From Taxawa tesnikishii (nom. ined.) (taxonomy: Eukaryota > Ascomycota > Dothideomycetes > Dothideales): 64,000 bases of DNA. The stretch spans positions 1,860,001 through 1,924,000 of the forward strand of contig JAPDRO010000001.1 of the NCBI GenBank assembly GCA_030247885.1, read 5' to 3'. Positions 801-64,000 of this stretch are shown piece by piece (the stretch's first letter is position 1; every line of letters starts with the position of its first letter). The notes beneath the pieces were generated by a model that saw only the letters and a program-made list of their open reading frames with translations, did no database searches and was not told the DNA's origin. The translations under genes were made by a program, and so were the position numbers.

Positions 801-1381
801 ATGCGTCTCCCTACTCTCCTCCGGAACCACAGGACCCGTCTCCAGAGACAGCAGCAATCTACGAAAGAATCAAGGAGCGACGAAACCCACGTCCGCTAAC
901 GAAGCTCGACCTCGCACTCCTCTACAACCCACAGATCGCCGACGGCTGGAACACGCTCCTCGGCGCCATCCGCTCAAAGACGACGCTGCCGGCCGCTCTC
1001 ACCGAACTGGCCGTCTGCCGCATCGCCGTGCTCAACGGCGCCACTTACGAATGGCACGCGCACGCTCCGCTGGCGTTGAAGGGCGGACTGAGCCGCGAGG
1101 CGCTGCAGACGTGCCGCACGGCACCGGCATTCGCAAGGGGTGGCGAGGGCGAGGGCGGGATGAGCGGCGCGGAGTGGGCGATCGTGAGGTACACCGACGC
1201 GATGACGAAGGAGGTCACGGTCAAGGATGAGGTCTTCGAGGGGCTGAAGGCGCACTTTGACGAGAGGCAGATTGTCGAACTGACGGCGACGGTGGCGACG
1301 TACAACTGTGTGAGTCGGTTCTTGGTTGCCTTGGATGTGTGTGAGATGAATGGGAAGGAGATCGAGATGCCGAAGGAGTGA
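801..1381 (+). CDS. Carboxymuconolactone decarboxylase / AhpD-like family protein (one-base frame slip)
   Basis: CMD/AhpD-like fold protein; fungal members are usually about 190 aa and poorly characterised. They are related to 4-carboxymuconolactone decarboxylase of the beta-ketoadipate pathway. Recognisable parts are LTKLDLALLYNPQIADGWN, LAVCRIAVLNGATYEWHAHAP and the C-terminal ATVATYNCVSRFLVALDV. The main reading frame has no in-frame ATG before residue M at 1028. The ATG at 801 begins MRLP, and adding one base to the CCC at 809-811 gives MRLPYSPPEPQ, a normal start for this family. The length then becomes 582 nt, or 193 aa. I therefore place the start at 801 and read the slip as a missing base in the assembly. 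No intron is needed. Confidence 0.8.
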
Positions 1382-1522
1382 AGGGGTTAAGGCGGGTTGC
1401 CGGAGAGAATGGAAGGTGGCTTTGGGGAGATCTTCAAGGAGGCTGTTGGGTCGCGGACTCGAGCAGCACTTCTGCAAAATTTTGCATTTCATATATCAAC
1501 ACCATACATTGTAGTATTTGTG

Positions 1523-2349
1523 CTACTTGCAGGCCTCCTGCGCTTGACGTCTGTTGATGTTTGCCGGGGTTCTTCTGATATTCTTCATCGCATTCGCGAT
1601 GGTCCAACGGAAGCATCGACCTACGTGCAATAGGAACTGGTCCATCGCTGTGCGGTGGTTGCCAACGAACTCTGCTTCAGTGACATAGCTCTCTGGGGAA
1701 GACCGTTGGGAAACATGACCAAGTTCGCTAACGCTACAGGAACGGAAGGTATAATATTCTAGTCTCAAAACCTCGGGCATGTGGCTGATCACGACCTTCC
1801 AGCGACCTGGCCCTAGAGTACGGACTGTCCCCAGTGTGAGGTTTGCAAGGGTGGCTGTATGGCAGCAAAGAAAGTCATTTAGGCCAGATGCAATTGTAAA
1901 ACATTCCGAGGTAAGCGCTTCCGAGTGTGACAGCATCGTTGAGGGACCAGGAACACAGCCGAAGGCGTAGAAAACCCCTCATACCAATCATAGTTAGAGA
2001 GTCAGAGGTCCGGCCTGGTAATATCTGGTGCTTGTGACGATGAAGCGTCAATGTCGCGGACAATGTGTGGCACATGCCAGTCTCCAGGCGGAGACTTTGA
2101 AGAGACAGATAGCTTGTAGCTGGCGGTAACGCCTAAGTGTTCAAGGCCACTGAACATGGGGACAGAGCCTTTCTGACTCCTGGGGATCTCGCATATATCG
2201 CTCGAAAGAGGCTCAAGCTCATCTTGGGATTGCCACAGAGGCCCGGGACTTCCTATAACGAATTCCTGCAAGGACGGTCGTTCCGGGCTGGGATGCGCGG
2301 TATATCGCGCCGTTGATTGGGAAGAAGACAGGCAAAGATGGGTCACCAT
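1523..2349 (-). pseudogene. Decayed LRR-like hypothetical protein gene
   Basis: Two minus-strand open segments, 2349-2002 and about 1975-1523, read like one fungal hypothetical protein with leucine-rich-repeat rhythm: SLQEFVIGS, MFSGLEHLGVTASYK, then GLNDFLCCHTATLANLTLGTV and WKVVISHMPEVLRLEYYTF. Between them, in the frame of the first segment, is one TGA (near 2017) followed by a -1 slip beside GGGG (about 1975-1978). No good GT-AG intron explains both. It may be a decayed gene, or a real gene hit by assembly errors as elsewhere in this window. I cannot name a family, and the true 5' end is not determined. Confidence 0.4.
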
Positions 2350-2838
2350 TGAGAACTCTCCTAGGAAGCGGTAGGGGATTGTAGGCCGTAAATCTAAAGC
2401 TGTGGTGGAGGTGCGTTATTCAAAGAATTAAAGCAAGGAAATGGTCATGTCGCATAGAAACTGGCGGCGCTCCGTCATACGTGCCGTGACTCTGTGCGGC
2501 ATGAACTCTGCTGCACGACGCCCTAACGTGTCTCGTGTCTTTACAATCGAGGATGCTCTGGGCTCCTCACAGCTCTTCTTCGTCATAAAGTTCATCGCGG
2601 AATCCGCCTCTGAGCTCTGAGGAAGTAGGTCCGCCGCCGTGCCTTACTAAGCATTTGCTTGAATGAACCTCGGTCCCAAGCCTGCGGGGGGATTGAGCCG
2701 CGGGATGGAGTTATGGCGAATGTGGAGAACCCACGGGGAGAAGAGAACTTACATCTGTGCAAGCAACTGTTTACCTGTTTCATCTTCTTGGTACGTTTTG
2801 ACAAACTACTTGCGTATCGTCGATCGGAGTCTACCAAA
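2350..2838. other. Intergenic
   Basis: No supported gene. It holds the presumed promoter and 5' leader of the acyl-CoA ligase that follows. The frame open from 2659 is an upstream extension of that gene's first exon and is not favoured as the start. Confidence 0.5.
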
Positions 2839-5368: not shown

Positions 5369-6452
5369 ATGCCTTTCGTAAGTCTTTCCAATGACTGAGG
5401 CTGACTGTCTGTCTCGGGCACCAGCCTAGTCAATTTCGGTGGAGTCACTGCAAGATGCTTCGGAAGGTCTGAAGCGCGAATTGCTGACTCGGGACTTTTC
5501 CTACAGACCAAGTTGGTCAAGAACTCGGCCTACTTCTCGTAAGTTCAACCATTACTTCACTGCGTGCGACCCTTCTCTGACCTTGACCAGCCGCTACCAG
5601 GTGAAGTACAAGCGCCGCAGGGCAGGAAAGACAGACTACTATGCTCGTAAGCGCCTGATCACCCAGGCCAAGAACAAGTACAACGCTCCCAAGTACCGTC
5701 TCGTTGTGCGCTTCACCAACCGCGACATCATCACCCAGATCGTCTACTCTGAGATCACCGGTGATAAGGTGTTCGCCAGCGCCTACTCCCACGAGCTCAA
5801 GCGCTATGGTATCACCCAGGGTCTGACCAACTGGGCTGCCGCCTATGCCACCGGTCTGCTCCTTGCCCGCCGTACCCTCAAGAAGCTCGGCCTTGACGAG
5901 CAGTTCACCGGTGTTGAGGAGCCCGATGGTGAGTACAAGCTCACCGAGGCCGTCGAGACCGACGATGGCACCCGCCGCCCCTTCAAGGCCTTCCTCGACG
6001 TTGGTCTTGTCCGTACCTCCACTGGTGCCCGTGTCTTCGGTGCCATGAAGGGTGCTTCCGACGGTGGTATCTTCATCCCCCACTCCGAGAACCGCTTCCC
6101 CGGTTACGACATCGAGTCTGAGGAGCTCGACGCTGAGACCCTCCGCAACTACATCTTCGGTGGCCACGTCTCTGAGTACATGGAGACCCTCGCCGACGAC
6201 GATGAGGAGCGCTACAAGTCCCAGTTCCAGGGCTACATCGACGATGAGATCGAGGCCGACGGTCTCGAGGAGCTATACGCCGATGCCCACAAGCAGATCC
6301 GTGAGGACCCCTTCAAGAAGGACGAGGACGAGAAGCCCAAGAAGTCCAAGGAGGAGTGGAAGGCCGAGAGCAAGAAGTACAAGAAGGCCAAGCTCAGCAA
6401 GGCCGAGAGGGAGGAGCGTGTCAAGGCCAAGATCCAGGAGCTTGCTGCTTAA
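5369..6452 (+). CDS. RPL5: 60S ribosomal protein L5 (uL18)
   Basis: Large-subunit ribosomal protein that binds 5S rRNA and travels with it, together with L11, into the 60S particle. Three exons: 5369-5377 (9 nt, MPF), 5507-5538 (32 nt), 5591-6452; 903 nt, 300 aa, the usual length. Exon 2 gives [21 protein letters not shown] across the junctions. Exon 3 contains [37 protein letters not shown] and the lysine-rich basic C-terminus. The first two tiny exons with a 129-nt first intron are a common layout for fungal ribosomal protein genes. Codon choice is strongly C-ending, for example proline almost always CCC, as expected for very high expression. Long antisense frames across this gene come from that bias and are not genes. 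Confidence 0.97.
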
Positions 6453-7463: not shown

Positions 7464-10400
7464 ATGGAGAGCGTGCACGGCGTCGATGTGAGCTGGCTGC
7501 ACCAGCCGAACAAAGGTAAGCAGCACACTCTGTCCTTTGGAGAACGTCACTCCATTTCCTGCAAGTAAGGGCGCTCACCTCCTCACAGAACACCACCACA
7601 GGAAAAGTGCGCCCTCGACTCCTGGTCTTCCACAAGACACCCGACCACCGACATCGTCGCATGGCGGTATACCTACCACTTCACCGCCAGGTAGCAACGC
7701 AAGCCAGCCCCAACCTACAGCCACTCCAGCACTACCTGTGCCCCAGCAGCCAGCGAAAGCTCTGCCGGCTCAGACGACATCTACTTCTTCGACGACACCT
7801 TCCAAGACACAGACCAGAAGACCCAACATTCTCAATCGATCCGGCTCAGACAAACAGCGTCGCAACTCATGGATCTCGAATATAAGCTCCAAATTCTCGT
7901 CCTCCCCCAGGGCCAGCAGCAGCCTGCGCCGTCTGCAACCCCGCCGCAGACCTCCAAGACCCAGATTAATGGTACAAATGCGGGCGCATCACCAGTGACA
8001 GCGAGGGAGAGGACACAGGGGGTCTCGCCGCCCAGCACGCAGAACGGAGAAGCGCAAGAACTACAACCATACGTGCCGCAAAAGCCAAGGGAATCGACCA
8101 GCTCTTTCTTCTCGAGTCTGACCCGTCGCATCTCGAGCAACAACCAGACTGGCGGCGCCACTGGTAAGTTTATGGAAAATGGTGGCATGTGTCCTCGACG
8201 TGTGATGAATGTAGATCCGAACCGGGAAAGATGCTTGGTTCCGGAGCTGGATTCCACAAAGTTGAGGAGAGTTGCATTCTCTGTAGATGTTGAGATCGCT
8301 GGAGGACCCCGATATAAAGACGAGGATGATCCCAGTGCAAAGCAGAAGAAAACACGAGATAGGAAAATCAAGGAAAGAGCAGAAGGAGAAGCGTTGAAGC
8401 ATCCGGAAGCCGTTGTAGAGAGTAAAGAACGTGGTGATACGATACAGGTGCCGGTCGATGACACCGCTGCGGAGGCGCAAACAGATATTGGAGTGGCAGA
8501 AAAGGACGCAGAGGGAGAGAGGATAGCCCACAAGAAAGAGAAGAAGAGGCGCTCTGAAGAAGAACGAAAAGAGAGGAAGGAGAGAAGGCGCAAGAAAGCA
8601 GAAGAGAATGGCACCATACCAGTAGAGATGGCGTCCAAGGACGACGACGACGAAGCAAGCGATGCTTCATCTCCTCCGGCGTCTGGACCCATAACCCCTA
8701 AACCTCAGGAAAGGCCCACTACTGATCCGGTCAGAATATACAGGAGATGTTGTCAGCTACGCGAGTCACCAATTCTGAAGCGTATAACCGAGCAGCTAAT
8801 GTCGCCAACATGCACCGTACCCGGCGACCCCGGCACTGTCACCTGCTTAAATCTTACTGGTTCGCGCCTGCAACTTGCCGATGTTGTCACTCTCGGAGAC
8901 TGGCTTGCAATTGTGCCTGTGAAACGCCTGCTTCTCGAAGATGCTGACCTGACTGACGAGGGTATTCGGGTCATCCTTGCAGGATTACTTGCTGCAAAGA
9001 CGCCCCAACCTACGAAGCGGCGTGCTAAGAGCGACTTGTCGAAACCGGTAGAGGAACGATCTGGTATCGTTGAGAAGATAATCTTGAAGAACAATCCTAA
9101 GATCACCAGAGTTGGCTGGAAGCACATCGCTTGCTTTCTCTACATGTGCCGCTCAATAAAGGCCATTGACGTTTCCATGGTTCACTTCCCTCGACAATTC
9201 CATCAACACCATACACCGGCACAGCGAAGTCACCGGAAACTCCGTCGAAGACTGGCCAACCCGTTGATGCTGCGGAAGTGTTGTACAAGTCACTTGCGGG
9301 CAGACGAGGAGGCGCACGACTGGAAGAACTTATCATGGCTGATTGCGGGCTGGACGCAGCGCAAATCCGTAAGATCGTTGACGGCGTGACGGTCAGCGGT
9401 GTCGCGCGATTGGGTCTTGCCAGTAACCAGCTCGACAACGAGGGATTCGAGTATACACTTCATTACATCCGCTCGGGCACCTGTCAGATCATAGACATTG
9501 GCGGAAACGACCTACGTGGGAAGCTCGACCGGCTTGCTGAGGCTCTTAGACACAAGAGTGACTGCCCTGTGTGGGGCCTAAGTCTGGCCGGTTGCAACCT
9601 GGATACTGCTTCACTCAGAGCGCTTCTCCCAGCCCTAGTAGAGCTTCGAGACTTTCGTTTCATCGACCTCAGCCACAACAGAGAGCTGTTTGGAGGGCAG
9701 GACTGTGCATCGCATTTGTTGCGGAAATACCTTCCCAAGTTGAAGCATCTCAAGCGCCTTCATCTTGTGGACGTAAACATGACATGTCGGCAAGCCATTG
9801 GAATAGCAGAGGTAAGCGTTGACGTTGTGATTTGAACATAGCGATGCTGATTGTTCCTTAGGTGCTTCCCGAAGTGCCCGTCCTTGCTCATCTCAACATC
9901 TTGGAGAACACACCACTCTCCGCGCTTGTATCCTCTGCGGATGAGAATAGCCAAGAGGAAGCCTGCGCTCTCTATGCTGCCCTTATGGCTGCTGTGAAGG
10001 CTTCGAAGACCATTGTCTGTATAGACATCGATGTAAGTACTCATCCTATCAACGATGGAAATTTGGCTGACCGAGTGTTGCAGGTTCCACGTGCAGACAA
10101 CAGTGAGGTCGTCAAAGCCCTCGCGAAGCAAGTCGTTGCCTATTCTCTCCAAAACATGGAGCTCTGCGCCATTCCGGGAGCAGATTCTGCCACAGCGGTG
10201 TCAACGCTCACGAAACCGCATGGCGTGTCCGACCCTAAGGAAGTTTCGGTTCCCGATGTGTTGCTCCACCTCGTTGGGCACGTAGAGGGCTTCCATGAGA
10301 ACCACGATCTCGACGGCCCTGCTCCGGAAGAAGATTACATTGTCGGCGGAACCGGCGTCGTCAAGGCACTACAGTATTGCTTGGGTGAGAAAGCCTTGGA

Positions 10401-11925: not shown

Positions 11926-12456
11926 TTATCCAGGCCCGATTCTGGGCATGTCGTGGTGCTCGCTGAGCGTGGAGAGGTACTTGTTGAGTTCCTCCACACG
12001 CTCCTTGTGCGTCTTGACACCCTCGCGCTTCAGGCGTTCGTCGAGCTACGCGTGTCTCCATGTGAGCGAAAACCGCAGCCTCGAAAACCCCGGACTCGGC
12101 GCCCGGCGAGTGGGTTGAAGAGCTAGGGCAAGAGAAGGAGAAAGAAATACGCACCCGCTTCCTCTTGCGCTCCTCGTGCCTTCGCTCCGCTTCCGTCTTG
12201 TAACCCCCGGCGCGGAAGTCTCCCTCGAAGCCGTGGCCGCGCTTCCTCCTCGCTCGTCTACACCCGCTGCCTCCTTGTCTTCCTCTTGCTGCTCTTGCAC
12301 GACCTTGTTTCCCTCTGCCTGCTTGCTCTCGCCCGGCTCGTCTGCGGCGGCCGCCGTTGGTTTTGATTTCTTCTTACGTTTCTTGTCGACGCCGGCGTTT
12401 TTGGCGCCTTTGAGCTTGAGGCCGCCGCCTACTCCGGTATAGTCGGAGGATGGCAT
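11926..12456 (-). CDS. FAM32A-like protein (small spliceosome-associated basic protein)
   Basis: Homologue of FAM32A, a small lysine-rich nuclear protein known from human spliceosomes as a step II factor near the active site. Two exons: 12456-12155 and 12045-11926, with intron GTGCGT...TAG. The N-terminus is SSDYTGVGGGLKLKGAK followed by DKKRKKKSK. The C-terminal exon gives LDERLKREGVKTHKERVEEL and then NKYLSTLSEHHDMPRIGPG, the family's hallmark. Exon 1 reads in one frame to about EDKEAAGVDER, then FEGDFRAGGYKTEAERRHEE in the -1 frame. Exon lengths 302 + 120 = 422 nt become 423 with one extra base (140 aa), so a single missing base somewhere about 12190-12300 is the simplest reading. A longer upstream frame to 12555 lacks family similarity, so ATG 12456 is preferred. 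Confidence 0.85.
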
Positions 12457-15067: not shown

Positions 15068-16932
15068 CTACAAATCATCAAAGCTTCCTTTGTTTTCCTC
15101 TTCCCATGCTGCTCTTATTGCCGGATCGACCTGGTCCGCTTTTGCCTGCGCTTCTGTGAGTTCTCGCTCCTCACGAGCTGGTTCGCTCTCATCCTCAATG
15201 AGCTTTTCCACTACCTCGATTCCACGTTCCAGCCAATACTTTTGATGTGCAGCCGGATCAACGCTATGATCAAGTGTCTCCCAATCTTTGTCTGGGTTTT
15301 CTTCAAGAAGCTTCTGCAGCTCTTCTCTCTGCTGTGCGACTTGCGCCCGCATTTTCTCCTTCCTCTCTTCAAACTTCTCCTGTGTCGTAACGTGATAGCG
15401 TGTGTCTGAGATCTTCTTTTCTAGTTTTCGTCTCTGCTCGGCGTCTGCGTCTGCCGGAAGTGCGTCCAGCTCGGCTTGTGCCTCTTTGAGGGTTTGTTCC
15501 CGTTCTTTGCGCATCGCAGCCCATTTCTTTAGCGCCTGTAGCGCTCTCAAGGGTTCCTCGGCGCGGTAACGGTCACGCTCACCTTCCTCGTATGCATCAC
15601 GGCGGCGGGAAAATGCATCACCGTTAAAGTCATCTGGCCAGCCGTTCTCGATGTACGCTTGCTTGTATGGCTCATATTCGGGCCATCCCTTCCCGTACAG
15701 ACCTCCTGGAATATACTGCAACGTTTTAAAGCGATTGATCATGTCTCGAAGGAGTTCAACCGCAGGCCGGCTGGGATACTGATCCAAGTCGTTCTCATTT
15801 ACAGTTTCTGGCAAATCTTTGACATCCGAGTCGTGGTCGTCTTCTCGATTGTCACTCCGCCCTGACTTCGAGTCATAGTCTCCTTCGCCGGCGGATTCAT
15901 GGTTTTCTTGTTCAGAGTGGTGATCGTCTTCGTCGTCGGAGGCATTGTCGGATTCAGTGTCGTTTGTTCCCCCTGAATCCGAGTCTTGGGAAGAATGATG
16001 TTGCCCAAAGTAAGGGTCTGCCGTGCCGCCCAGCTGTTCTATGAACCACATTTTGAAGTCTTTGGTGTCGAGTATCATGACGCTACCGTGGTTCCCACAA
16101 TCATTCAAGGCAATATACCAGGGTCTCATGAAGAGGCCATCTTTAGCGTCGTAGCCTCTGACCGCCTGCCGCCACTGCGCTCCAGGACGTGCGTAGTCAA
16201 GAGCATAGAAGGGATCTACGAAGCTGCGAAACCAACGCTCGGTGTCTTCTGACGCATCGCCACGCATGTCGGGTCCGAACTCGCCGCCAAAAGAAATTCT
16301 CCGTGGTCGCTTCCGTGATTCCAGTTGCCCTCTCCAGGATTTTTATAAGGAAGCATTTGCAACAAATCGACAACGTCCTTGGTGAGGCCTAAGCGTGCCG
16401 CCATGTTGATGTCGACAGGCTTCGTGGTGTGCGGCGGGTATGCGAGATCTTCCGCATTGATGTAACGCGTTTTAACGAACAGCTCATACAGCTCCGTCAT
16501 TAATCTTGCAATTTCTGCAATCACGGGATGAGGGTTTTCGGGGTATACGGGACTATAAACTGACGGACTCAAGGGAGGATTGTACACCTGCAGTTCTCCT
16601 ATGAGGTCGTCCATGTTGGTACCGGCAGCAGGCCACTTCTTCTCAGGACTGGGAGGCTCAGGGACTGGATTATTAGCAGCGACCCCATTGAAACGAGAGG
16701 CGATGAGGTTGCCGATGGCTTCCTTGAGTTCCCTTGGCTCTCCCAGATTTTGACCAAGGATCTCCTCTAGGCCTGTGCGAACACGCTTCGTTGATACAGT
16801 AGACAGATCACTATTGGCGAGAACATCATCGATGACAGATGCATACGATGCCTCTTGTTCTTTGGTTACTGTTGATTGGTCAGAAAGCGATACCATGGAT
16901 AAGACAGACGGCAATGTCTCCGTACGAATCAT
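15068..16932 (-). CDS. Conserved fungal hypothetical protein, acidic middle, charged coiled-coil C-terminus
   Basis: Not assigned to a named family. Segment 16932-about 16300 has an alpha-helical region ending GLTKDVVDLLQMLPYKNP...NHGSDHGEF, and segment about 16300-15068 continues GGEFGPDMRGDASEDTERW, WYIALNDCGNHGSVMILDTK, then a long Asp/Ser-rich acidic stretch and an Arg/Glu/Lys coiled coil to the stop. The two join by a -1 slip beside AAATT at 16294-16298. One added base gives SDHGEISFGGEFG and a total of 1866 nt, or 621 aa. The part around residues 200-290 resembles ascomycete proteins of unknown function that report on small-molecule or SMI1/KNR4-like folds, but I would not call that. 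No signal peptide or membrane span is seen. Confidence 0.7.
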
Positions 16933-19956: not shown

Positions 19957-20580
19957 CTACTCCACCTCCACAATCTCAAGGATTGTGTCCTCAATACTGG
20001 GCATTGTCGGCTTCCACCCAAGATACTTCTGTGCGCGACCGCTCCTGGCCCTTGAGTTCAGGCCCCAGCTGAGTGCCTGGAAGTCCGCCGTCTCCCAGGC
20101 TTCATCCTTGCCCATGGGCTGCACATGCGCAGCTTTGATGTAACCCTTGTCGGCAGCAGACTTCGCAACGACCTTGGCCAGCTCGCCCCACACAAACTCA
20201 CCGTTCTCGACGATGTAGTAGCCCTTGGGGCCCCACAGACCGGTACCCTCTCTACCTGCAGCGGCTGCTTCTGCAAATAGGCGGAAGAGAACCGCGAGGT
20301 CATGCACGTGCACGCTATTCCAGCGCGCCTGCCCTTTCCCGATGACGGGTGCTTTGCCCAGTTTTAGGGTGGATTCTGCGAGCGTGGGTGTTTGACGGGA
20401 ACGCTGTGAGACGGGACCTCGACCGCTGCCTGTAATCAAATCAGAGGATGGCCAACAAGGGTGGCGAATTGAGAGACTCGCCGTAGATGGGGAGGAGGAG
20501 GAGGAGGAGGAGGAGGAGGAGGAGGAGGAGGAGGAGGAGGAGGAGGAGGAGGAGGAGGAGGAGGAGCTGGATAAACATTC
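19957..20580 (-). pseudogene. NAD-dependent epimerase/dehydratase, C-terminal half with a GGA expansion
   Basis: The C-terminal half of an extended SDR epimerase is clear in exon 20429-19957: GSGRGPVSQRSRQTPTLAE, ARWNSVHVHDLAVLFRLF, GPKGYYIVENGEFVWGELAK, ALSWGLNSRAR and AQKYLGWKPTMPSIEDTI. A 52-nt intron (20481-20430) with a GC donor (TACG|GCGAGT) joins it to PIY, completing the conserved PxxIYG motif. Directly upstream the frame is 25 leucines encoded by the GGA/TCC repeat, where the family has a short strand ending in PPT. Further upstream I find no Rossmann GxxGxxG nor catalytic YxxxK in any frame before the divergent SDR begins. The N-terminal half therefore seems lost, or is unreadable because of assembly errors. 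Confidence 0.65.
20491..20566. repeat. (GGA)n trinucleotide microsatellite, about 25 units
   Basis: A perfect GGA/TCC run of about 76 bp. On the minus strand it reads as poly-Leu in the epimerase frame, poly-Pro and poly-Ser in the other two. It sits exactly before the PIYG motif of the epimerase remnant. Confidence 0.95.
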
Positions 20581-26298: not shown

Positions 26299-26636
26299 GT
26301 TTGATCTCTTCTCAAAGAATCAAATGCTTCCTTCCGTACAAGTTGTATAGAGTAGACACAACGAGTGTGGAGAACGAGGAGCAAGCACCTACATGGCGCG
26401 CGTCATTTTGCATGACTCGCGCGCGTTGCAGGAAGCTCGGACCTGCGTGACAACACAAGCTTCGATTGGATTGTTATAATTCCGCAGGAGAAAGAATCAC
26501 GCGCAACATACTACAACTTTGTACAACGTCTTCGACTTGGATTATTCCCTCATTTGCAACAAACTGTTCCGTCCTCACGACAACAGGTTAACATATACCG
26601 CCTGCGCGGTACCACAGAGACATCCCCATCCTGGAC
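26299..26636. other. Divergent promoter, phosphatase / SR protein
   Basis: 338 bp without a gene. It must carry both promoters. Confidence 0.6.
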
Positions 26637-27649
26637 ATGCCCTCGCGCTCGCCTACACCGCGACGCTCCCTCTCGCGGGGTCGTTCGCCCACCCGGTCCA
26701 GGTCGCGAGATTCTCCACGGAATGCGCCAGCTCGATCGCGTTCCCCACGCCGCACAATATCGCCAAGGAGCTCACCTGGAGGACGTAATGGCTACCGCGG
26801 AAGAACTGGGACGCGTTCACGAAGTCCGATGCGCGATGCAAGCAGGAGCCGCAGCCGGTCAGGCTACAGGGACAGGAGCTACTCCAGGAGTCGCAGTCGA
26901 GGGGAAGCCCGGTCATGCCTAGGAGCTCCAAGGTAGGGCATTGCGTATCGGTACGTGGAGGGCAGCACTAACATCTTGCTAGATCGTCGTTGAGAAGCTT
27001 ACCAAGAACGTCAATGAGGGCCATCTACGTGAGATATTCGGCACCTATGGCTCCATAGCAGATCTTGACATGCCCATGAACCGACAATTCATGACCAACC
27101 GGGGTACCGCATACATTCTCTACTCTACCCCTCTGCCGCCGAATCTGCCATTGCACATATGCATGAGGCGCAGCTGGATGGCGCGCAAATCAACGTGAGC
27201 ATAGTGCTGCCTCGACGCCGCTTCTCGCGCTCTCCGCCTCCAAGACGTCCTCCGCCAAACCGCTTCGGCGAACCACACCGCTACCGCGAGCCCCCGCGCC
27301 TCCGCCAAGGGCCGGCGGAGGCCGGTACAGGTCACCTCCACGCCGACGCTCTCCTCCGCCACGGGGTTACGGTGCGGGTCCCGGTTACGGAAGAGGATAC
27401 GATGATACAGACAGTTACCGTCCCAGGGAAAGGAGCTACAGCCCTAAGAGGAGCCCAAACCGGAGCCGGAGTCGGAGTCGTAGCTACACACGGACTAGGA
27501 GTCCTACGAGGAGTCCACCGAGAAGGAGAGATTACAGCCCGCCGAGAGGCGGCGGCAGGAGAAGAAGAAGTCCTAGCTACAGTAGCTATGGCAGTCGCAG
27601 TCGGAGCAGGAGTTACAGTCGGGATCGACTAAGAGGAGGCAGGAGATGA
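26637..27649 (+). CDS. SR-type RNA-binding protein (RS-RRM-RS), three frame slips
   Basis: Nuclear splicing-related protein in the RNPS1/transformer-2 style: an N-terminal RS-rich region, one RRM, and a C-terminal RS/RGG region. Exon 1 is 26637-26932 and exon 2 is 26983-27649. The RRM begins IVVEKLTKNVNEGHLREIF with RNP-like GTAYILYST and ends INVSIVLPRRRFSRSPPP. The tail reads RSPPPRGYGAGPGYGRGYD and SRSRSRSYTRTRSPTRSPP. The frame slips -1 at GGGG 26901-26904, CCCC 27128-27131 and the CC at 27299-27300. One base at each restores the family sequence (RG-GSPVMPRSSK; YSTP-SAAESAIAHMHEAQLDG; PRPPPRAGGGRYRSP). Spliced length 963 becomes 966 nt, 321 aa. The stop is TGA 27647-27649. Translating without these corrections gives nonsense tails. 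Confidence 0.85.
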
Positions 27650-28423
27650 AGGGCAACCGTGCAACACACACAAGCCGTGCAGAAGGAGCCAGTCGGTTCC
27701 GGACTAGGCGCGACGGTGCTTCTGGAGACTGCGCGCATAAGCATGACAAGTCTGAAAACTTCACGTCAACGCATCCGACCTGGAAACGCGAGTGTTTTTG
27801 CGAAGATTTACAACCAAGGCACCTGGAATAGAAGAAATTGCCGGGAAAGGGCATGACTACAGGCCATGCTATACAGCCGCCATCAGAATTAGTAAGACGA
27901 CTTACCGCTTTGTAAGTCCTCATGATCGACGGCGATCGTTGCGAGCGTCGCCCCGTGTACTTGGTCATGCCCTTCGAAAGTTTGTACATTCATTTTTGGC
28001 CCGCTCTAAGCGTGTGAGAGGGCACGTAAGGTAGCTTCAGATATGCAATAGCAACCCATGACCTTGACGGATTGCTGGATCGACAATTACCATGCCTGGT
28101 CGTCTCGCTGCAAGACCAAGATTCTCGCTCTTCCGCGGCGATGCCATGTAAGTCGCTTGTATGAAGCATGTGCTCTGTACCGTATCGTACCATGTCGAAG
28201 AAGAGAGTGAGAGAGTAGGGTCCCCAGTCTTGGCGTTTGTTGCTGCTGGCCAAGCCACATGCGGCCGGCTGTCGGCGCAGCGTTGTGGTGCATCATCCAT
28301 CTCGAGCTCATTCCGCTATATTGACACCCGCGACTCCCTGTATTATGGCCATTACACCTTTGCGATAGCTCAAGCCTCCGGATCTTTCATTCTCGAGTAC
28401 AGGCGACGCAATCGTAACCAACA
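27650..28423. other. Intergenic; VPS35 promoter
   Basis: No gene recognised. Small open frames on both strands lack features. Confidence 0.6.
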
Positions 28424-31311
28424 ATGGCGACGCCGCCTCCGGTGGAGGACCAGGCGCGTCTGCTGGAGGAAGCACTCGGTGTCGTGCGGCAGCAGGCGGT
28501 GCTTATGCGACGATGCCTCGAGGCACCGGGCAAACTGATGGACGCGTTGAAATGCGGGTATGTACTGGGCCATGGCGTTGCTCCTACATTGCTGAATCTC
28601 GTGTACCAGATCGACCCTCGTGTCCGAACTGCGAACATCCAGCCTAGGCCCCAAGCAGTACTATGAACTCTACATGTCCGTCTTCGATGCGCTGCGACAC
28701 CTATCTGTATACCTTCGCGACTCACATCCTACAAACCACCTGGCCGATCTCTATGAACTTGTACAGTATGCAGGCAACATTGTACCTCGTCTGTATCTGA
28801 TGATCACCGTTGGCACTGTCTACATGGGAATTGAGGACGCTCCGGTCAAAGAAATCATGAAAGACATGATGGAGATGAGCAGGGGAGTCCAACACCCAAT
28901 CCGCGGCCTGTTCTTGAGGTACTATCTGAGCGGACAAGCGAGAGATCATCTGCCGGCTGGAGATGGACAAGGACCAGAGGGCAACCTCCAAGATTCGATT
29001 AGTTTCGTCCTGACAAACTTCGTGGAAATGAACAAGCTCTGGGTTAGGTTGCAACACCAAGGCCACTCCCGGGAGAGGGAACAAAGGACAAAAGAGAGAC
29101 AGGAGCTTCAGCTTCTCGTCGGAAGCAACCTCGTGAGGTTGAGTCAGCTAGTGGACTTGGACTCCTACAAGAACGTCATTCTGCAGCCCTTGTTGGAGCA
29201 AGTGGTCCAGTGCCGGGACGTCCTTGCGCAAGAGTATCTGCTTGAGGTTGTCACCCAGGTCTTCCCGGATGAGTTCCATCTCCACACTTTGGACCAATTC
29301 TTGTCAGCAACAGCGAGATTGAATCCGCATGTAAATGTCAAGGCGATTGTTATTGGTCTCATGGATCGTCTTTCTGCATATGCTGCTAGGGAATCGGAAT
29401 CGGACTCCCCGAGGATCGCAAGAAGGCGGAGGAAGACGCTACCGTTCGACTGCTCGAGAAGCTCAAGATTGCGAAAGAAGCTAAGGAAGCCGAGGGTGAG
29501 CAGGATGCGGAAGCCCAACAGAACGGCGCGCAAAGGGACGGCGAGCAAGAAAACGCAGAATCAGCTTCAACGCAGAAATCGCCGACAGACGCTGGGGCGG
29601 AAACTGAACCGACACAAACGAACGGCGATGGCAAGAAGAGTCGAGGCATTCCCGACCACGTCCGACTCTTTGAGGTCTTCCACGAGCAGGTCATTCACCT
29701 CGTTAGCATGCAAAGGCTACCTATTCAGGACATTACTGCCTTGTTGGTTTCATTGGTGAACCTTGCACTGTGAGTATCCCGGACGGCTTTGCTCCCGTGT
29801 TTTGCTAATGCTTGGTAGGAACATCTACCCCGATCGACTCGAGTACGTCGATCAGGTATTCCAATACGCCAATAAGGAGGTCTCGAGATTTGCCAACAGC
29901 GCTGACCTGCACTCCCCTCAATCTCAAGGCAATCTCCTCAGTCTTCTTTTGGCTCCTGTAAAGGCCTACTTTTCTCTTTTCACTGCTCTTGCGATACCAA
30001 GCTTTATTCCGCTGCTCAACTCTCAAACATATCCTACGAGGCGCGCTGTCGCTGGGGAAGTGGCTCGGAGTCTTCTTCGGAATGAAACGAAGATTGAGAC
30101 GCAGGAAAACTTAGAGGGAGTCCTTGCGATCCTCCAAGTTCTCATCAAAGAAGGCATGCAAGCACCATCTGGTTACCCAGGAGGTCCAGCACGCAGAGGT
30201 GCGGCGGAAACAGACGAGACGATTGAAGAGCAAGGATGGCTTGCTCGGATGGTCCATCTCATTCGTGGCAAAGACACGAACGCTCAGTTCAAGGCAAGTC
30301 AAAGCGATTGTCAGAATCACACAGAGACTGACTTGGCGTCACAGCTACTCCAAACTGCACGGGATGCATTCGCGGAAGGGAACGAACGCATCAAGTACAC
30401 CACCCCAGCTCTTCTCACCGCTTCTCTCAAGCTTGCACGGCGATTTAAAGCTCGCGAACACCTACAAGATGATTGGTCCGTACAATCTTCTGCCCTCTAC
30501 AAGTTCTGTCATTCCCTCGTGTCCACTCTCTACACGCGCGTTTCCGCTCCTGGAGTTCCAGATCTCGCGCTGCGTCTCTTTGTCTCCTGCGGGTCCATTG
30601 CCGATCAGTGCGGATTCGAAGAGGTGGCGTACGAGTTCTTCGCGCAAGCGTTCACCGTCTACGAGGAGAGCGTCAGTGATTCAAGGGCACAGTTCCAGGC
30701 TGTGTGCATCATTGCGCAGGCACTCTGCGGCGCTAGAGGCTTCAGCAGAGAGAACTATGATACTCTTATCACCAAGTGTGCTCTCCACGGAAGCAAACTG
30801 CTCAAAAAACCCGACCAGTGCCGTGCCGTGTACCTTGCAAGTCATCTGTGGTGGGCAGTTGAGAAGGGTGAGGAGGAGGGCGAGAGCAAGGAGGTGAGTC
30901 AAATAACTGCACCATTGCCGTTCAAAGCTGACATTGGAAAGCTGTACCGCGACGGCAAACGCGTCCTTGAATGCCTGCAGCGGGCCCTCCGCGTTGCAGA
31001 CGCCTGCATGGACACCGCCGTCTCCGTTGAGCTATTCGTCGAGATCCTCAACCGCTACGTCTACTACTTTGATCAAGCCAACGATGCCGTAAGTCACATC
31101 TCCGCTCCCTTCAGCACATGTCCATTCAGTTACTAACAGTCTCTCCAAGGTCACAACGAAATACCTAAATGGTCTTATCGAGCTCATCCACTCCAATCTC
31201 AACACGAACGAGAACACGTCAAGCCTCGAGAACCCGCGGAAGCACTTCCAGAGGACCCTCGAATATATTGCCGGCAGGGAGTACGAAGGTGTTGAGACGA
31301 GACCAAAATGA
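28424..31311 (+). CDS. VPS35: Vacuolar protein sorting 35, retromer cargo-recognition subunit
   Basis: Core subunit of retromer (with Vps26 and Vps29), recycling sorting receptors from endosomes to Golgi or plasma membrane. It is an alpha-solenoid. Exons: 28424-28557, 28610-29769, 29819-30293, 30345-30893, 30942-31088, 31150-31311. N-terminal [17 protein letters not shown] and [20 protein letters not shown] are typical. [10 protein letters not shown] near residue 105 is the invariant Vps26-binding motif. [26 protein letters not shown] and [20 protein letters not shown] follow. A -1 slip beside GG at 29402-29403 is corrected by one base; 2627 nt becomes 2628 (875 aa, normal size). Intron 3 (30294-30344) is a GC-AG intron with AAG|GCAAGT. 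Introns 3 and 4 are stop-free multiples of three. Confidence 0.95.
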
Positions 31312-37900: not shown

Positions 37901-40526
37901 ATGTCTCGGTTTTTCTACGGTAGCGACACCTCCAGTGAGAGCTCCGACGAGGATGAGGTTTCGTTGAACAGCGAGGGGGAAGAGAAGAGAGACGAGTCTG
38001 AGGAGGAGAGTGAGGAGGAGTCCGACGAGGAGGATGAGTCGGAGGAAGAATCCAGCGATGAGGAAGGAGTTGGAGGCGGTGCCAATCGCTTCTTGAAATC
38101 AGACGACGAATCCGAAGAAGAATCCGATGAGGGGGAGCAGGTCACGATCGTCAAGAGCGCAAAGGACAAGCGCTTCGACGAGCTTGAGGGCATTATCAGA
38201 CTGATTGAGAATGCGCAAAAGATCAACGACTGGAATGTCATCAACGAGCGTAGGTTGTGCACCGGCGTGTAAGCCTAAGCATGGGCTAACAGCACGCAGA
38301 ATTCGACAAGATGAATCGCCAGATCCCAATCCTGATGCGCGACAACAACGGTAAACCACCAAAGATGTACATCAAGACTATTGCCGACCTGGAGAAGGCC
38401 AACACCGAGGCTGTGGAGAAGGCAAAGGTCACGCCCAAGAAGCTCAACGCACAAGCCGCGAGAGGTCTCAACGCCATGCGTCAGAAGATCAGAAAGAACA
38501 ACAAGGATTACGAGACCGAGGTCAAGGCTTACCAGGCGGATCCGGACGAGTACTTCAAGGATGACGTGGTCGAGGACGTGACGACGGCACCGAAGAAGAC
38601 CAAGAAGGCACCGCTTATGCCGGCTGAGCAGACTATTGATGCGAGCGATGACGGCTTCACCATGGTTGGTGCTGGTGGCAAGGCCATGACCTACACTCCG
38701 GAGAGCATTCTGAAGCACCTGCGCACAATCGTCGAATCCAGGGGAAGGAAGAACACCGACCGGCTCGAACAAATCCGGGTCATGGAGAGGCTGCTTGACG
38801 TTGCCGTTACTGACTACCAGAGGATTCGCGTTCTTATGACGCTCATCTCTACCCGCTTTGACCTTACATCCGGCACTGGCAGTCAAATGTCCCAGGAGCA
38901 ATGGATCCTTGCCCAACAGGAGCTTTCTAAGCTCTTCGGAACCCTTGAGGCCAACCAGAACATCGTCGTCGTTGAAGGCGCCGAGGAGTGGGAAGACGAC
39001 GAGAAGCAGCCACAGATCAACCCTGGCGAGACCTTCAAGATCCCTGGCAGTGTTGTGTCCTTCGTGGAGAGGCTCGACGATGAGTTTACCAGAGTTCTCC
39101 AAGCTTTAGACCCTCACACCGCCGAGTACGTGGAGAGGCTGAGCGACGAAGGTGTCCTCTACACTGTCATCGTCCGCTGCCTGGTCTACATGGAGCGCAT
39201 CAAGGCGAAGCCTGAAGTGGGCGCGTCCCAGGACCCTCTCAACCGCACTGTCATGCGCAGGCTGGAGCACATCTACTTCAAGCCATCTCAGGTCGTCCAA
39301 ATCCTGGAAGAGAACACCTGGAAGGCCTTGCCAGAGAAACTCGACTCCCTCATCACACCTCGCACCCAAACTGCCGACAGTAGTGCGCTCGTCCAGACTC
39401 TTTGCACATACCTCTTCAGGAACAGCGACGCCATTATCCGGGCTCGCGCCATGCTTTGCCAAGTCTACCATCTCGCTCTCCACGACCAATATTACAAGGC
39501 CCGCGACATGATGCTAATGTCTCATCTGCAAGAGACTATTGCTCAGTTCGACGTCAACACTCAGATCCTCTTCAACCGCACTCTTACTCAGGTCGGACTG
39601 TGCGCCTTCCGCGCTGGTCTTGTGTACGAAGCGCAAAACTCCCTCCAGGAAATCTGCGGCAGCCAACGGCAGAAGGAGCTTTTAGCCCAGGGTCTGCAAA
39701 TGCAGCGTTACTCTCAGATCACTCCCGAGCAGGAGCGTCTTGAGCGTCAGCGCCAGCTGCCGTTCCACATGCACATCAACCTGGAGCTGCTTGAGTGCAT
39801 CTACCTCACGTGCAGTATGCTGCTCGAGATCCCACTGCTCGCTCAGGTCGGCTCTTCCCCAGATCTCAAGAAGCGCGTCATTAGCAAGTCCTACCGCAGG
39901 ATGCTCGAGTACCACGAGCGGCAAATCTTCACCGGCCCACCAGAGAACACCCGTGACCACGTCATGCAGGCATCGAAGGCGCTGGCACAAGGTGAGTGGC
40001 GGAAGGCCGCCGATTTCATTGTCGCGATCAAGATCTGGGACCTGCTTCCTCAGGCACCAAAGATCAAGTCTATGCTCGAGGCTCAGATCCAGGAGGAGGG
40101 TCTCCGGACATACCTCTTCACCTACGCACCGTTCTACGACACCCTCGCCATCGACAAGCTCGCCGGCATGTTCGATCTTCCGGAACGTAAGGTTGCAGCC
40201 ATTGTCAGCAAGATGATCTCCCACGAGGAGTTGGCAGCCGCCCTTGACCAGGTCAACAGCGCCATCATCTTCAGGAAGGGTGTCGAGCTCTCACGCCTGC
40301 AGAGCCTGGCACTCACCCTCAGCGACAAGGCCAGCGGCCTCATCGAGAGCAACGAGCGCACGCTCGAGCAAAGGACACAGGGCACGGCCAACGCGTTCGA
40401 AAGGCAAGGCGCCCAGCGTGGTGGAAGGGGAGGTCGGGCGGTGCCCGCGGCGGTCGTGGCGGCATCGGTGGCAGGAGAGGTGGTGGATTCACAGGTGGCG
40501 TGCTCGGCAATGCAATCAGGACATAG
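37901..40526 (+). CDS. NIP1: Eukaryotic translation initiation factor 3 subunit C
   Basis: Core PCI subunit of eIF3; it binds eIF1/eIF5 and the 40S subunit during start-codon scanning. Exons 37901-38249 and 38300-40526. It starts [19 protein letters not shown], the family hallmark, then a long Glu/Asp/Ser region, [20 protein letters not shown] and [18 protein letters not shown] across the intron. The central solenoid and C-terminal PCI domain are clear: [40 protein letters not shown]. Near the end the frame slips -1 at GGG 40436-40438. One extra base gives an RGG-rich tail, [18 protein letters not shown], ending [10 protein letters not shown] with TAG 40524-40526. Length 2576 becomes 2577 nt, 858 aa. 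Without the correction the frame runs on about 60 codons too far. The symbol is the yeast name. Confidence 0.95.
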
Positions 40527-47228: not shown

Positions 47229-48696
47229 ATGATTCCCTCTATTCCCCGCCTCAGCGACTACGACGTGTCACAAGAGTACGGATTCCTGCCTTCCGAATTA
47301 CCGCTGGAGGTCCTCCCAGATCCATACTACAGACCATGGGAGAACATCGTTCGCAACCTGCAGGGTCTTATACTTAGCCGCAGACTACGTGGTCTGGTCG
47401 ACAATCTACCTATACTCTCTACCGATTACCTACGGACAGATGCAGAATGGCGGCGAGCATACATGGTGCTCGCTTTCATCTCCCACTCCTACATATGGGG
47501 TGGCGAACGTCCGGCTGAGAGGGTCCCGCCTGCCATTTCCATTCCCTTTGTCGCTGCCTGCAAGAGGGTCGAGTTGCCGACGGTCGCCACATACGCTGGG
47601 GTCGTCTTATGGAACTACAGGCCACTGTTTGACGATGAGCCCGTTGACAACCTGGACAACATCGCTACTCTTACAACTTTCACTGGCTCACTTGACGAGT
47701 CATGGTTCTATCTGGTCTCCGTCGCCATAGAGGCACGGGCCGCTCCTATCATTCCGCTCATGCTGCACGCCATCGAAGCAGCACGCTATGGCGATAGGGC
47801 TACCGTTACGGAGTGTCTGCGTTCGTTTGCGGAGCGTCTCGACGAACTTGGATCCCTCTTGGTGCGCATGTACGAGAACTGCGATCCACACGTCTTTTAC
47901 CATCGTATCCGACCCTTCCTCGCTGGAAGTAAGAATATGGCCGATGCTGGCCTGCCCAACGGCGTTATCTTCGACACTGGCAGCCCATCTGACGAATACG
48001 TGCAATACAGCGGTGGTAGCAATGCACAGTCCTCTATCATTCAATTCTTCGATCTCGTCCTTGGTATCGAGCACCGGCCCACAGGCACTTCATCAGCAAC
48101 CGTTCAGCCAGGCTCCGCACCAGCAGTCTCTGCCCCCTCACAATTTCATCCATGACATGCGCACATACATGCCCGGTCCACACGCACGCTTCCTGGAACA
48201 CGTCTCTCGAGTTGCGAACATCCGGTCCTTCGTGACGCAGCACCGATATGACCGCGCATTGGCGACCGCCTACGATGCCTGTCTCGCTATGCTGCGGGCC
48301 ATGCGAGACAAACACATCCAGATGGTGTCCCGATACATCATCGTCAAGTCGCGGGAGACGCGTTCGCACTCCCGCTCTCTGTCACGCGACGCACCCAAGG
48401 CGCCCGAGCGGATGAACATCGCCACAGGCTCCGCAAAGGAGGGCGCGGACCGCAAGAACCTCCGCGGTACGGGTGGCACAGCGTTGATTCCGTTCTTGAA
48501 GCAGGCAAGAGACGAGACGGGTGAGCCCGCCATCGATGCCTGGGCCAGGAGACTGTTGAACAACGGTCCAGGTGCGCCCCAAGCTGGCGTTCGCATGGGC
48601 AAACTGGGAGAACATGCCAGCGGTGAGACGGAGATTGTGGGTCTCGCGGGAGTCTGGAGCGTGGATGACAGCGATGGTGGCATCTGCCACTGGTGA
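47229..48696 (+). CDS. Indoleamine 2,3-dioxygenase family protein
   Basis: Haem dioxygenase that opens the indole ring of tryptophan to N-formylkynurenine, the first step of kynurenine/NAD synthesis. Fungi usually have several paralogues. No intron is needed. N-terminal IPRLSDYDVSQEYGFLPSE, FISHSYIWGGERPAERVPP, SLDESWFYLVSVAIEARAAP and VFYHRIRPFLAGSKNM are typical. C-terminal MRTYMPGPHARFLEHV and RDKHIQMVSRYIIVKSR carry the proximal haem His (near residue 362). The frame changes between EHRPTG (about 48085) and LPPHNFIHDM (about 48140). Here the offset is +1 (or two missing bases), unlike the -1 slips elsewhere. The junction lies in a poorly conserved Pro/Gln linker, so its exact place is uncertain. 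After about 48400 the tail is low complexity. Confidence 0.9.
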
Positions 48697-53211: not shown

Positions 53212-53222
53212 ATGCGCAATCC

Positions 53223-54262
53223 TTACAGCTCGCCCTCAACGCCTATCCACACACCGAACGCCCTCACGAACCCGTCTTTGACCGCCCCGGCCGTCTCGTC
53301 CCTCTCTCTGCGCCCCTCCCTCCTCTTGTCTGCCTGCGCCTCATACTCCTTCGCCGCCCTTGTCGCCGCATCCACCCACAGCGTTCTTGGCGCAGCCGCG
53401 GTCAGCGCCAGCATCACCCTGACCGTGTCCACGTCCTTCCTCACCGCGTCCAATACCTCGTGCAGCTTGTGGTCCTTGAGTGATAAGACCGTGTTCTGCT
53501 CTAAGCTGGCGACGGGATTCCACGCCCGCGGGTGGGAGTAGCGTATCGTGACCTCCTTCAACTGCGGGTAATCCCTCACGAGCGAGCGTTCCGCACTGTT
53601 GCTATTGAACCAGCTCGTCCAGAGTCGCGCATCCGTGCCCTTGATCCGCAGCCTCAACTTCTCAACCCGCACGCTGTAGGGGCTCGCGAGCGCGTGCCGG
53701 AACATGTTCGCGTCGCTCGGGTGTCCAAAGTCCAGCACGTTCAGCGAGTACAGCAACGGCGCGCTTTCCTCGTAGACTGGCTTCGCGACGCGCAGCAGCA
53801 CCGGCTGTAGACCGAGCGATTGCGCCGGCGCCGGCCACGGGATCGTTTCCTCGCTTCTCAACACTAGCGACCAGATCTCGTTTCGCAACTCGCGCGGGAG
53901 GGAAAAGAGCGGCGACGCGGCTACAGAGGCGGGCACTGCTGTTGCTGGTGCCGGTGCTGGTGCTGGTGCTGGTGCTGGTGCTGGTGCTGCTGGATTGCTG
54001 TTGGGCTCGGGGAGCGGGATCGCATCTCGAGGCCCGCTGCGTCGGATTCGGAGATCTCGGAGAGAGAGGTCATGGTGTCTTTGCGAGCTGGTGGATTGGG
54101 GTGGGGCGGGCTGAATAGATAGCTGGTGTTACGACTTAGTGGTCCTCGTGGTGAATCGAGCGCGTCGGCGGTGCTCAGGTAAGAAAGACTGCGCGTAGAG
54201 AGGACGGATTCATGCCATTGGTATGGATCGCTCGGCGTGGACGAAGGCTGCTGTTGCGACAT
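53223..54262 (-). CDS. F-box/2EXR-like fungal hypothetical protein
   Basis: N-terminal part from ATG 54262 (MSQQQPSSTPSDPYQWHESV) is disordered, with a histidine/glutamine repeat. The C-terminal part begins ASPLFSLPRELRNEIWSLVL, the start motif of the 2EXR/F-box-like domain found in very many ascomycete proteins. It continues PVLLRVAKPVYEESAPLLYS and LNVLDFGHPSDANMFRHAL. The two frames are offset by -1 inside or next to the GCTGGT repeat (53944-53993). One added base gives 1041 nt, 346 aa, with the repeat read partly as Pro-Ala (PAPATAVPASV) and partly as His-Gln. Molecular function of such proteins is unknown; some act as substrate adaptors. Confidence 0.7.
53944..53993. repeat. (GGTGCT)n hexanucleotide repeat, about 8 units
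   Basis: Near-perfect GGTGCT/AGCACC array within the coding region of the F-box/2EXR-like gene. It encodes His-Gln or Pro-Ala depending on frame. Confidence 0.9.
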
Positions 54263-57187: not shown

Positions 57188-58653
57188 ATGGACAACTCTT
57201 CAACAGGAATGCTCAAATTCCTTGTCCCGCGCATACCCTCTATGATGAGGGCTGCGCTAGCTCACTCGGTCTACATGTCACCTACCTCGACCAAATGGGA
57301 CCTGCGCACTGAGTTGACAGTACATGTCCTGCGCTCGCTGATGTCCGGCGACAAACCCTCCCCAGTCGGCAAAATACAAGCCTCGACACTTCGAGGCCCC
57401 GGACCAAAGGGAAAGATGTGGGTAGCGGAAACAAGCATACCGGCGCCGTCGGACGATGGGCTGCGCGAGGCTGTGGTCAAGTCAGTGGACGAAATGAATG
57501 AAGGTGGCGAGGTCTACTCGGTAGAGAAACTCAGCACTCCGATGCGTGCAGAGTGGACCGGGTTCCGTCCGAACGTTGGAAACGAGGATCCGTTGCCAGA
57601 TATCTCGGAAGAGGAGAAGTACAAGAAGTTGATGGCGGAGCCTTCCAGAACGAGCAAGACAACGGTGCTATACTTCCACGGCGGTGCATACTACCTGTGC
57701 AGTCTTGCCACTCATCGTGTCAATGTCTCGAAGCTCGCAAAGGCATGCAACGGCCGGGCGCTTGCCGTGGAATATCGTCTTGCACCACAGGTCGCATTCC
57801 CAGGGCAGCTTCTTGATGCGCTGAACTCATACCTATATCTCCTCTACCCGCCTCCAGGATCTTTGCATGAGCCGGTCGCTGCTAGTGAGATCGTCTTCGC
57901 TGGTGACTCCGCGGGCGGCAATCTTGCATTTTCACTTCTGCAGCTGCTTCTGCAGTTGCATCGTACCAAGCCGGCATCTGCCGCAAACCCAACAGTGCAT
58001 TACAACGGAAAAAGCGTCGAGGTGCCACTCCCTGCAGGAGTGACAGCAAACTCTGGCTGGTTCGACGTTACTCGATCCATGCCCTCTTTGCAAACCAACG
58101 CCAAATACGACTATCTGCCCCTCCGGATCACGACGATGCAGTTTCTCGTTTTCCGGAGGACGATGTCTGGCCGACAAAGCCACCGCGTGGTGACCTTTTC
58201 TGTGATCTCAGCATGCTGTGCCATCCGCTTGTTTCCCCACTTGCTGCGAAGGACTGGTCAGGTGCGCCACCTCTCTGGATCGAGACGGGCGAGGAGATGT
58301 TGACCGACGAGGATGCCGTTGTTGCGGTCAGGGCGGCGAGCCAGGGCGTCACCGTCCAGTGGGAACAGTACGAGGCCATGCCGCACTGTTTCGGAATGCT
58401 TCTTCCTGCTCTGGCGACCAGTAGTCGCTGTATGAAGTCTTGGGGCGATTTCTGTAGGCGTTGTGTCGAGGGCGATGTCAAGACGAACGGCACCTGGATC
58501 GCGGCGAAGACAGGCCAGGAGAAGGAGGTTGATGTGGCGAAGGTCACAGGTCTAAAGTGGGAGGACGCAGTGGCAAGAATGAAGGAGAGCCAGTCCAAGA
58601 GGTTGAAGGGTTGGGAGAAAGAGGGCAAGGCCATGCCCAAGCCCAATCTCTGA
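57188..58653 (+). CDS. Alpha/beta hydrolase, hormone-sensitive-lipase (HSL) type esterase
   Basis: Serine carboxylesterase of the HSL/alpha-beta hydrolase-3 family. No intron needed. VLYFHGGAYYLCSLATHR near residue 160 gives the oxyanion-hole HGG. GDSAGGN near 238-244 holds the nucleophile Ser. WIETGEEMLTDEDA carries the acid, and YEAMPHCFGM the catalytic His. The frame slips -1 at CCCC 58118-58121. Adding one base gives YDYLP-PPDHDDAVSRFPED and a length of 1467 nt, 488 aa, and keeps all three catalytic residues in one frame. No signal peptide is evident; the N-terminal helix region (RIPSMMRAALAHSVYM) may be membrane-associating. The substrate is probably a short-chain ester; not determinable. 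Confidence 0.9.
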
Positions 58654-59220: not shown

Positions 59221-59385
59221 GCCTAAAGCGCAGTACAGGCGTGCTTTTGAGGGTTCGTCATACCACTACGTCTCCTCGACTCCACATGTTCAGCTAACGG
59301 CCGGCACTCGCGTACAGTTACAGCAGTAGAGGAAGCCTTAGCCCCGTCAACCAGTGCGAGCAGCCAGCGGAGGGAGGCCTGTCAA

Positions 59386-59412
59386 TCTGCCTCTGCCTCT
59401 GCCTCTGCCTCT
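59386..59412. repeat. (CTGCCT)n hexanucleotide repeat
   Basis: About four and a half perfect units followed by pyrimidine-rich sequence. Confidence 0.85.
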
Positions 59413-59833: not shown

Positions 59834-62826
<2,993 letters not shown>

Positions 62827-63625
62827 GTGGAGCGGGTTGGGTAGATCGGATAAGATCTTTCAGCCAAAAATTGAAGAGGAAAATGTTGTTCGGTCTCCGT
62901 TCGGGATTATGCTCGGAGTGCACATGGCTCGAGCAGGAGACATCACCGTAGCCCGACTCCAAGCAACCAGCGGAAGGAATGGGAGGGAGAAGGGAGCCTT
63001 CGCCGCTGACATGTTCAGTGAGCCTGGGAGATTGAAAGAATGTGGTTTCTTCGAACAGAGGGACAGGAAGCATTTCTTGCCATCAACAGGATAGGGCAGT
63101 TTCTCTTCAACGTCGTCATCGAATGGAGAACTCATGTCAGATGCGCACTGTCGTTTCTACGTCAACAACGAGCTCGATTGTCAACCGCCTAGCGCGACGA
63201 TATCTGCCGTACGGGGGTTGATCCGGTTTTCCTCTTGCGTAGATTAGGGAAAGAAGAGATGGAAGGAAGAAGCGTTACAGGATAGGAAATCAGGTTGTAT
63301 ATGTATCCTTAGACTGTCAAAATTCATGGAATCTCTCGTTGAGAAGGAGAGAATGAGCTTAGTTTCGGTTCTCCTTTTTGAGAAACGCCGTTCATGCATC
63401 GTTTGGTTCGGTGAGTGCAGGTTTGTAGTACCTCCTGTAACTGACCAGCATTCGCTGACCAGCGCCTCAGCATTCGCATCGAACCACACCCATTACGCCC
63501 AGATGTTCCAATTCTTCCATTCCTCCCATTCACCAGCATCCCTTTTGAACTTCCTGAAGACGTTCGTCTGGGTTTGCAGTACCGTCTCCTTCACATCCGC
63601 CTACAGCGGTTATTCTTTCTCGAGC
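62827..63625. other. Intergenic between convergent genes
   Basis: About 800 bp between YAK1 (+) and the sulfatase (-). Minus-strand frames below 63655 contain EWEEWKNWNIWA-like peptide (about 63505) that could be a terminal sulfatase exon or chance. No other gene seen. Confidence 0.4.
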
Positions 63626-64000
63626 TTATACAAACTTGCGCCGCCTCCTTCGTAACAATGCTCCCACCCCACTGTCTTCGCCTGAGAAAAGATCGGTCGC
63701 ATGGCCATCAAACTCCCGCTCCGGCTTGGGCTTCAACCCATCATGTTGATGATAGTGGGCGCTATATCAACGTGCCCGAAGACGAAGTTCGATCTGCTCT
63801 GCCCTTTAACGATACCCGGTCCGCGGATGATCAGAGGCACACCGATATCCTCTTCGAAACATTGCTTCTTGCCTCCCTGGAGCCGATGCTGTCCCATGTG
63901 GTATCCATTATCACAGCTGTAGATCATACAAATGTTGTTCAGGAGACCTTTTTGTTCGAGTTTTCGAACGACTTGCTCAACCATGTCATCGACGGATTTC
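63626..64000 (-). CDS. Sulfatase (arylsulfatase-like), 3' part, cut by window edge
   Basis: C-terminal part of the catalytic domain of a formylglycine-dependent sulfatase that hydrolyses sulfate esters. From the right edge: SVDDMVEQVVRKLEQKGLL, IYSCDNGYHMGQHRL (metal-site DN and His; the usual SDNG is SCDNG here), the Lys of LQGGKKQCFEEDIGVPLIIR, and FGHVDIAPTIINMMG. The frame then stops at 63733 unless one base is added to CCC 63737-63739 (minus GGG). That gives GLKPKPEREFDGHATDLF and a stop near 63626. It is consistent with the -1 slips in this window. The nucleophile CxPxR motif lies beyond the edge. The true 3' end is uncertain because the predicted tail (LLRRRRKFV) is not family-like. 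Confidence 0.85.

Follow-up and report, generated by a model that had tools for sequence, protein, structure and literature searches.

Single-base frame slips at short homopolymers in conserved genes of a Taxawa tesnikishii assembly: very probably consensus errors

A break in the reading frame of a conserved gene may be an error of the assembly, a true mutation, a misread intron or a place where the cell itself changes frame. The question is raised by a 64,000-nucleotide stretch of Taxawa tesnikishii DNA (hereafter the window; G000:C1:1860001-1924000), in which an earlier note had listed a series of slips of exactly -1 and ascribed them to sequencing error. The assembly totals 29,367,862 bases (29.37 Mb) in 34 contigs. 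The window has a G+C content of about 54% and holds members of the RPL5, GH43, NadN-type nucleotidase, VPS35, eIF3c and glutamate-cysteine ligase (GCS) families, as well as an IDO-family gene, an AMP-binding enzyme, a Yak1-like kinase (named after the earlier note), an esterase and a sulfatase. Short introns are typical (median 60 bases, n = 192 decoded introns), and gene content and intron size both point to a fungus. Scans for Rfam families and tRNAs returned no match in the window, and a 75-base GGA repeat array is located at position 20491.

The listed slips (n = 13) comprise one in a CMD-family gene, two in an Mhp1-like gene, one in a FAM32A-like gene, one in a gene described as unknown, three in an SR-type gene and one each in VPS35, eIF3c, a 2EXR gene, the esterase and the sulfatase. 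The listed regions were translated in three frames and the frames were placed by peptide anchors. All 13 display the -1 direction ascribed to them, the downstream codons starting one base early. Database matches flank both sides of the slip in two cases (VPS35 and esterase) and a single side in seven (CMD, FAM32A, the unknown gene with its DEK_C domain, the second SR slip, eIF3c, DUF7730/2EXR and sulfatase), while neither side is matched in the remaining four (both Mhp1-like slips and the first and third SR slips). Acidic stretches gave weak matches to CDC45, which were disregarded.

VPS35 is the clearest case. Residues 35-301 of structure 6h7w are matched in the frame of 28596-29756, as far as window base 29411, and residues 302-412 in the frame of 29390-29770, from base 29411 onward. 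The two matches meet at this base and there is consequently no room for an intron. The -1 junction is located on the forward strand at about 29405-29411, with CCCC at 29407-29410, and was also called by the blind coding model described below. A slip is thus present in VPS35 as had been reported, but its placement at 29402-29403 was a few bases early. Exon 3 starts at 29819, and the six exons sum to 2627 bases, which matches the figure given earlier; this is the one spliced length that was rechecked. Further along the gene, positions 30294-30344 form an apparent in-frame 51-base GC-AG intron with a GCAAGT donor, which appears as an insertion relative to solved relatives.

Some of the other sites could in principle be ordinary short introns misread as slips. 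The intron test considered GT-AG or GC-AG introns of at least 38 bases between peptide anchors picked by eye and covered 12 of the 13, all but the first Mhp1-like slip (7880-7920, forward strand), which was placed by frame inspection only and has no Pfam match. With these hand-picked anchors, no GT/GC-AG intron is possible at 10 of the 12 slips tested. On the forward strand, these include, besides VPS35, the CMD slip near the gene start (809-822, CMD domain in the downstream frame), the second Mhp1-like slip (9170-9232, seen by frame inspection, no Pfam match), the first SR slip (26895-26905, seen by frame inspection, GGGG in the interval) and the second SR slip inside the RRM (27122-27137, RRM_1 1-48/70 in the upstream frame, CCCC at the junction). 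The forward strand also carries the slip in the glycine-rich tail of eIF3c (40405-40440), where eIF-3c_N and PCI lie upstream and the tail was read by inspection, and that of the Abhydrolase_3 esterase (58112-58152), where profile positions 1-121 and 149-208 fall in two frames with CCCC in the interval. Two weak intron possibilities arise in the esterase with Pfam anchors alone and none with peptide anchors. The reverse-strand sites of this group are the DEK_C-domain gene (16219-16342), in which two open frames overlap and DEK_C lies in the upstream frame, the 2EXR/DUF7730 gene (54000-54030, DUF7730 in the downstream frame, blind-model call at 54022) and the sulfatase (63722-63742), where the slip falls at the stop directly after the domain (Sulfatase 212-300/301 in the upstream frame) and the downstream 46 amino acids have no match.

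The two remaining sites do offer candidate introns. In the FAM32A-like gene (12199-12300, reverse strand), where FAM32A 4-77/91 lies in one frame and the blind model placed a deletion at 12254, 22 intron combinations are possible, some with a GTAAGA donor. The third SR slip, before the RS tail (27222-27331, forward strand, seen by frame inspection), admits two introns, both with weak donors. These two sites may be introns. Elsewhere in the genome, a CCT6 locus (C3:921536) resembled a slip in the match table and was rejected, as it proved to be an ordinary intron. Conversely, the matches abut or overlap at VPS35 and at the CCT5, RPB2-like and Hsp70-like loci presented below, where no intron is possible, and introns cannot account for the overall excess of deletions. 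We therefore consider it improbable that introns lie behind some of the slips. Three of the genes that had been described as free of slips behave as expected: intron-sized gaps are found at the junctions of the 4CL-like gene, of GCS and of the searched part of the Yak1-like kinase. The OYE-like and SDR junctions likewise show intron-sized gaps and no slip.

The claim of a single direction does not hold strictly. An IDO-family gene absent from the initial list (48087-48138, forward strand) has its profile (PF01231) split over two frames, with positions 2-286 in the frame of 47229-48152 and positions 287-411 in that of 47788-48693. Profile position 286 ends at 48095 and position 287 starts at 48127, leaving 31 bases between them; no intron is possible at this junction, and the stretch holds CCCCC at 48133-48137. 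Since the IDO gene slips by +1 or -2, the -1 direction is a strong bias and no rule. The direction also bears on the proposal that the cell recovers the frames by programmed -1 ribosomal frameshifting or by editing its transcripts. The 13 listed changes all have the classical programmed direction, but a canonical in-frame X XXY YYZ heptamer is present in none of the seven junction stretches, the sites lie scattered among housekeeping genes, the chain of the VPS35 relative runs unbroken over the site, and the IDO change belongs to another class. Recoding of this kind is scarcely conceivable here.

The breaks are not restricted to the window. Six protein families were searched genome-wide, and in the 60.3 kb of conserved domains matched (a sum that includes overlapping and sub-cut-off rows) three junctions without room for an intron were found. 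These are -1 slips in a chaperonin subunit which, from its motif, we take to be CCT5 (C1:528261-528264), in an Hsp70-like gene (C3:494622-494625) and in the second-largest subunit of RNA polymerase (RPB2-like, C7:204783-204798). A fourth -1 slip was located in a GH92 glycosidase (L019, about 5923-5947), where Pfam positions 132-139 overlap in two frames. All four slips pinned by homology outside the window are thus -1. Ambiguous pieces in another frame of an adaptin (C12:1613878) and of a tRNA synthetase (C1:572421) were left out of this count. The C-terminal piece of CCT5 is at best 27-40% identical to the other chaperonin loci in hand, and no close second copy exists among them. A genome search with MFS_1 scored 9 of 454 candidates and yields no rate.

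Both CCT5 and the RNA polymerase subunit have an essential role in the cell. This weighs on the possibility that the deletions are real, as in a mutator lineage, for instance one devoid of mismatch repair, that loses bases in short runs. Real slippage also favors single-base losses in runs, and the pattern of losses would fit such a lineage in that respect. Against it, the breaks fall in core genes (CCT5, the RNA polymerase subunit and eIF3c) with undamaged sequence to the left and right, and a search for MutS, as opposed to MutL, identified six MutS_V loci in the genome. Intact core sequence on either side of the breaks and the presence of MutS-type loci make real loss of function unlikely, and we regard a mutator origin as extremely improbable.

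A homology-independent estimate was obtained from a two-strand coding model with introns, in which a lost and a gained base carry equal penalties. This blind model was trained on 289 kb, consisting of the window, 20 sampled 10-kb stretches and 8 short loci. At a penalty of -9, 15 deletions and 2 insertions were called over the 157 kb decoded as coding, split into 4 versus 0 in the window (39.0 kb) and 11 versus 2 elsewhere (118.1 kb). The corresponding figures are 23 versus 4 at -7 and 47 versus 14 at -5.5. A synthetic control of 600 kb (about 331 kb coding) with no planted errors gave 0 deletions and 1 insertion at -9, 7 and 6 at -7, and 25 and 26 at -5.5; these balanced results indicate that the model is not biased toward deletions. 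Single-base losses therefore exceed gains, on several contigs and at unrelated loci.

The blind model is nevertheless weak. Of 101 deletions and 101 insertions planted in synthetic sequence, it recovered 19 and 27, respectively, at -9. The same penalty recovers three of the 13 slips on the list, and at some of the listed sites the model prefers introns or calls no gene. Among the 23 deletion calls at -7, two-sided homology support was obtained for VPS35 and GH92, and when the flanks of the blind calls in L009, L015, L017, L018, L020, L022, L026 and L027 were searched with Pfam, no single family matched on both sides. An insertion call at L011:848 is unsupported, as MFS_1 matches cross it in one frame; the actual break lies upstream of 848, within a gap about 211 bases long. 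In the window, an extra deletion call at 42758 (forward strand) falls in an unnamed gene and is without homology support. Taken at face value, and leaning on the sensitivity measured with synthetic DNA, the calls would correspond to the loss of about one base in every 2 kb of coding sequence. The methods disagree on how dense the slips are: the window holds 13 or 14 in its 39 kb of coding DNA, and the three pinned slips in 60.3 kb are several times fewer than either the window or the model estimate would give. Slips close to the end of a domain escape the family search, and the slip density of the window may be above the genome average.

The association of the slips with homopolymers, mainly of C or G, had also been proposed and is well supported. 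The narrow junctions lie at a run of exactly 4 in five cases out of five (C in VPS35 and in the second SR slip, G in CCT5 and the RPB2-like gene, A in the Hsp70-like gene), four of them being C or G. A run of at least 4 is found within 12 bases of 7 of the 15 deletion calls at -9 (p 0.002) and of 10 of the 23 calls at -7 (p 0.0006), compared to about 14% of random coding positions. These figures are also relevant to the collapse of alleles or repeats of unequal length, which has been described in a diploid parasite as a source of false indels (PMC8445201). Such a collapse would likewise be a frame-breaking artefact of assembly, yet neither a preference for deletions nor one for runs of 4 would be expected from it, and the SR and VPS35 stretch (26500-31500) is single-copy in the genome, with no second copy in the assembly. 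Collapse is accordingly very improbable as the source of the slips.

The run-length distribution was also considered. A/T runs extend to no more than 8 bases in 131.6 kb of noncoding DNA, where nine of them reach at least 7; the drop in these runs is weak (p 0.09). Noncoding C/G runs continue from 3, 4 and 5 bases with frequencies of 0.22, 0.15 and 0.12, and none of the 76 coding C/G runs of at least 5 reaches 6. This scarcity of long runs, seen within this one assembly, agrees with runs being under-called. Some eukaryotes are described as having no excess of long runs (PMC4194402). Long runs do survive: a run of 19 C is present at L022:5058, in an assembly where runs beyond 6 are otherwise very rare, and the genome contains 24 exact A12/T12 runs. 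Run length is therefore not capped. The 5S rRNA genes served as a control, which revealed little. They are dispersed, a whole-genome search giving 47 matches across many contigs, of which 44 are 120 bases long and the other three 119, 122 and 99. Five fetched copies show marked divergence from each other and were too diverged for comparison with the 119-base copy.

Taken together, the observations support the sequencing-error reading of the earlier note. Frame changes biased toward deletion are spread across the assembly, are associated with runs of about 4 and are present in core genes; with no slippery heptamers at the seven junctions checked and six MutS-type loci in addition, real mutation or programmed frameshifting fits poorly. 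We conclude with high confidence that the slips are consensus errors of the assembly, in which runs called one base short break the frames of otherwise normal fungal genes. Runs of identical bases, commonly assembled as 4 letters, would have been called one base too short, and the shortened runs would then break reading frames at scattered places, the living genome carrying longer runs. The likely cause would be long-read base-calling or consensus building. The converse scheme, in which the DNA itself carries the short runs and slippage of polymerase or ribosome at these runs puts the frame right throughout the genome, would amount to an undescribed deletion tolerance in a fungus, and we give it next to no credence.

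Consensus errors of this kind have several parallels. Frame errors are described for nanopore-only assemblies of Drechmeria coniospora, with insertions outnumbering deletions after polishing, in a study that examined G/C or A/T runs of at least 4 (PMC7500977). The present assembly resembles that system, as described there, in being fungal and in having frame breaks at short homopolymers within conserved genes, and differs from it in that deletions dominate. The Kastor study describes gene-fragmenting indels that are mostly false deletions in homopolymers of 2 to 8, most of them after 4 to 5 (PMC12007338). The predominance of false deletions at short homopolymers is shared with those cases, in which A/T runs are reported as commonest, whereas four of the five narrow junctions here are C or G. 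A strong deletion bias is likewise described for an early nanopore human assembly, where it came from truncated runs capped at about 5 (PMC5889714); in contrast, runs of 8, 12 and 19 survive here.

The signature is thus an ordinary artefact of assembly and no real biological feature, and it carries no wider biological meaning. Its importance is practical. Claims of gene loss or of odd protein ends drawn from this assembly need accurate reads first, and its annotators should expect core genes to show up falsely as pseudogenes, with truncated proteins and spurious short introns.
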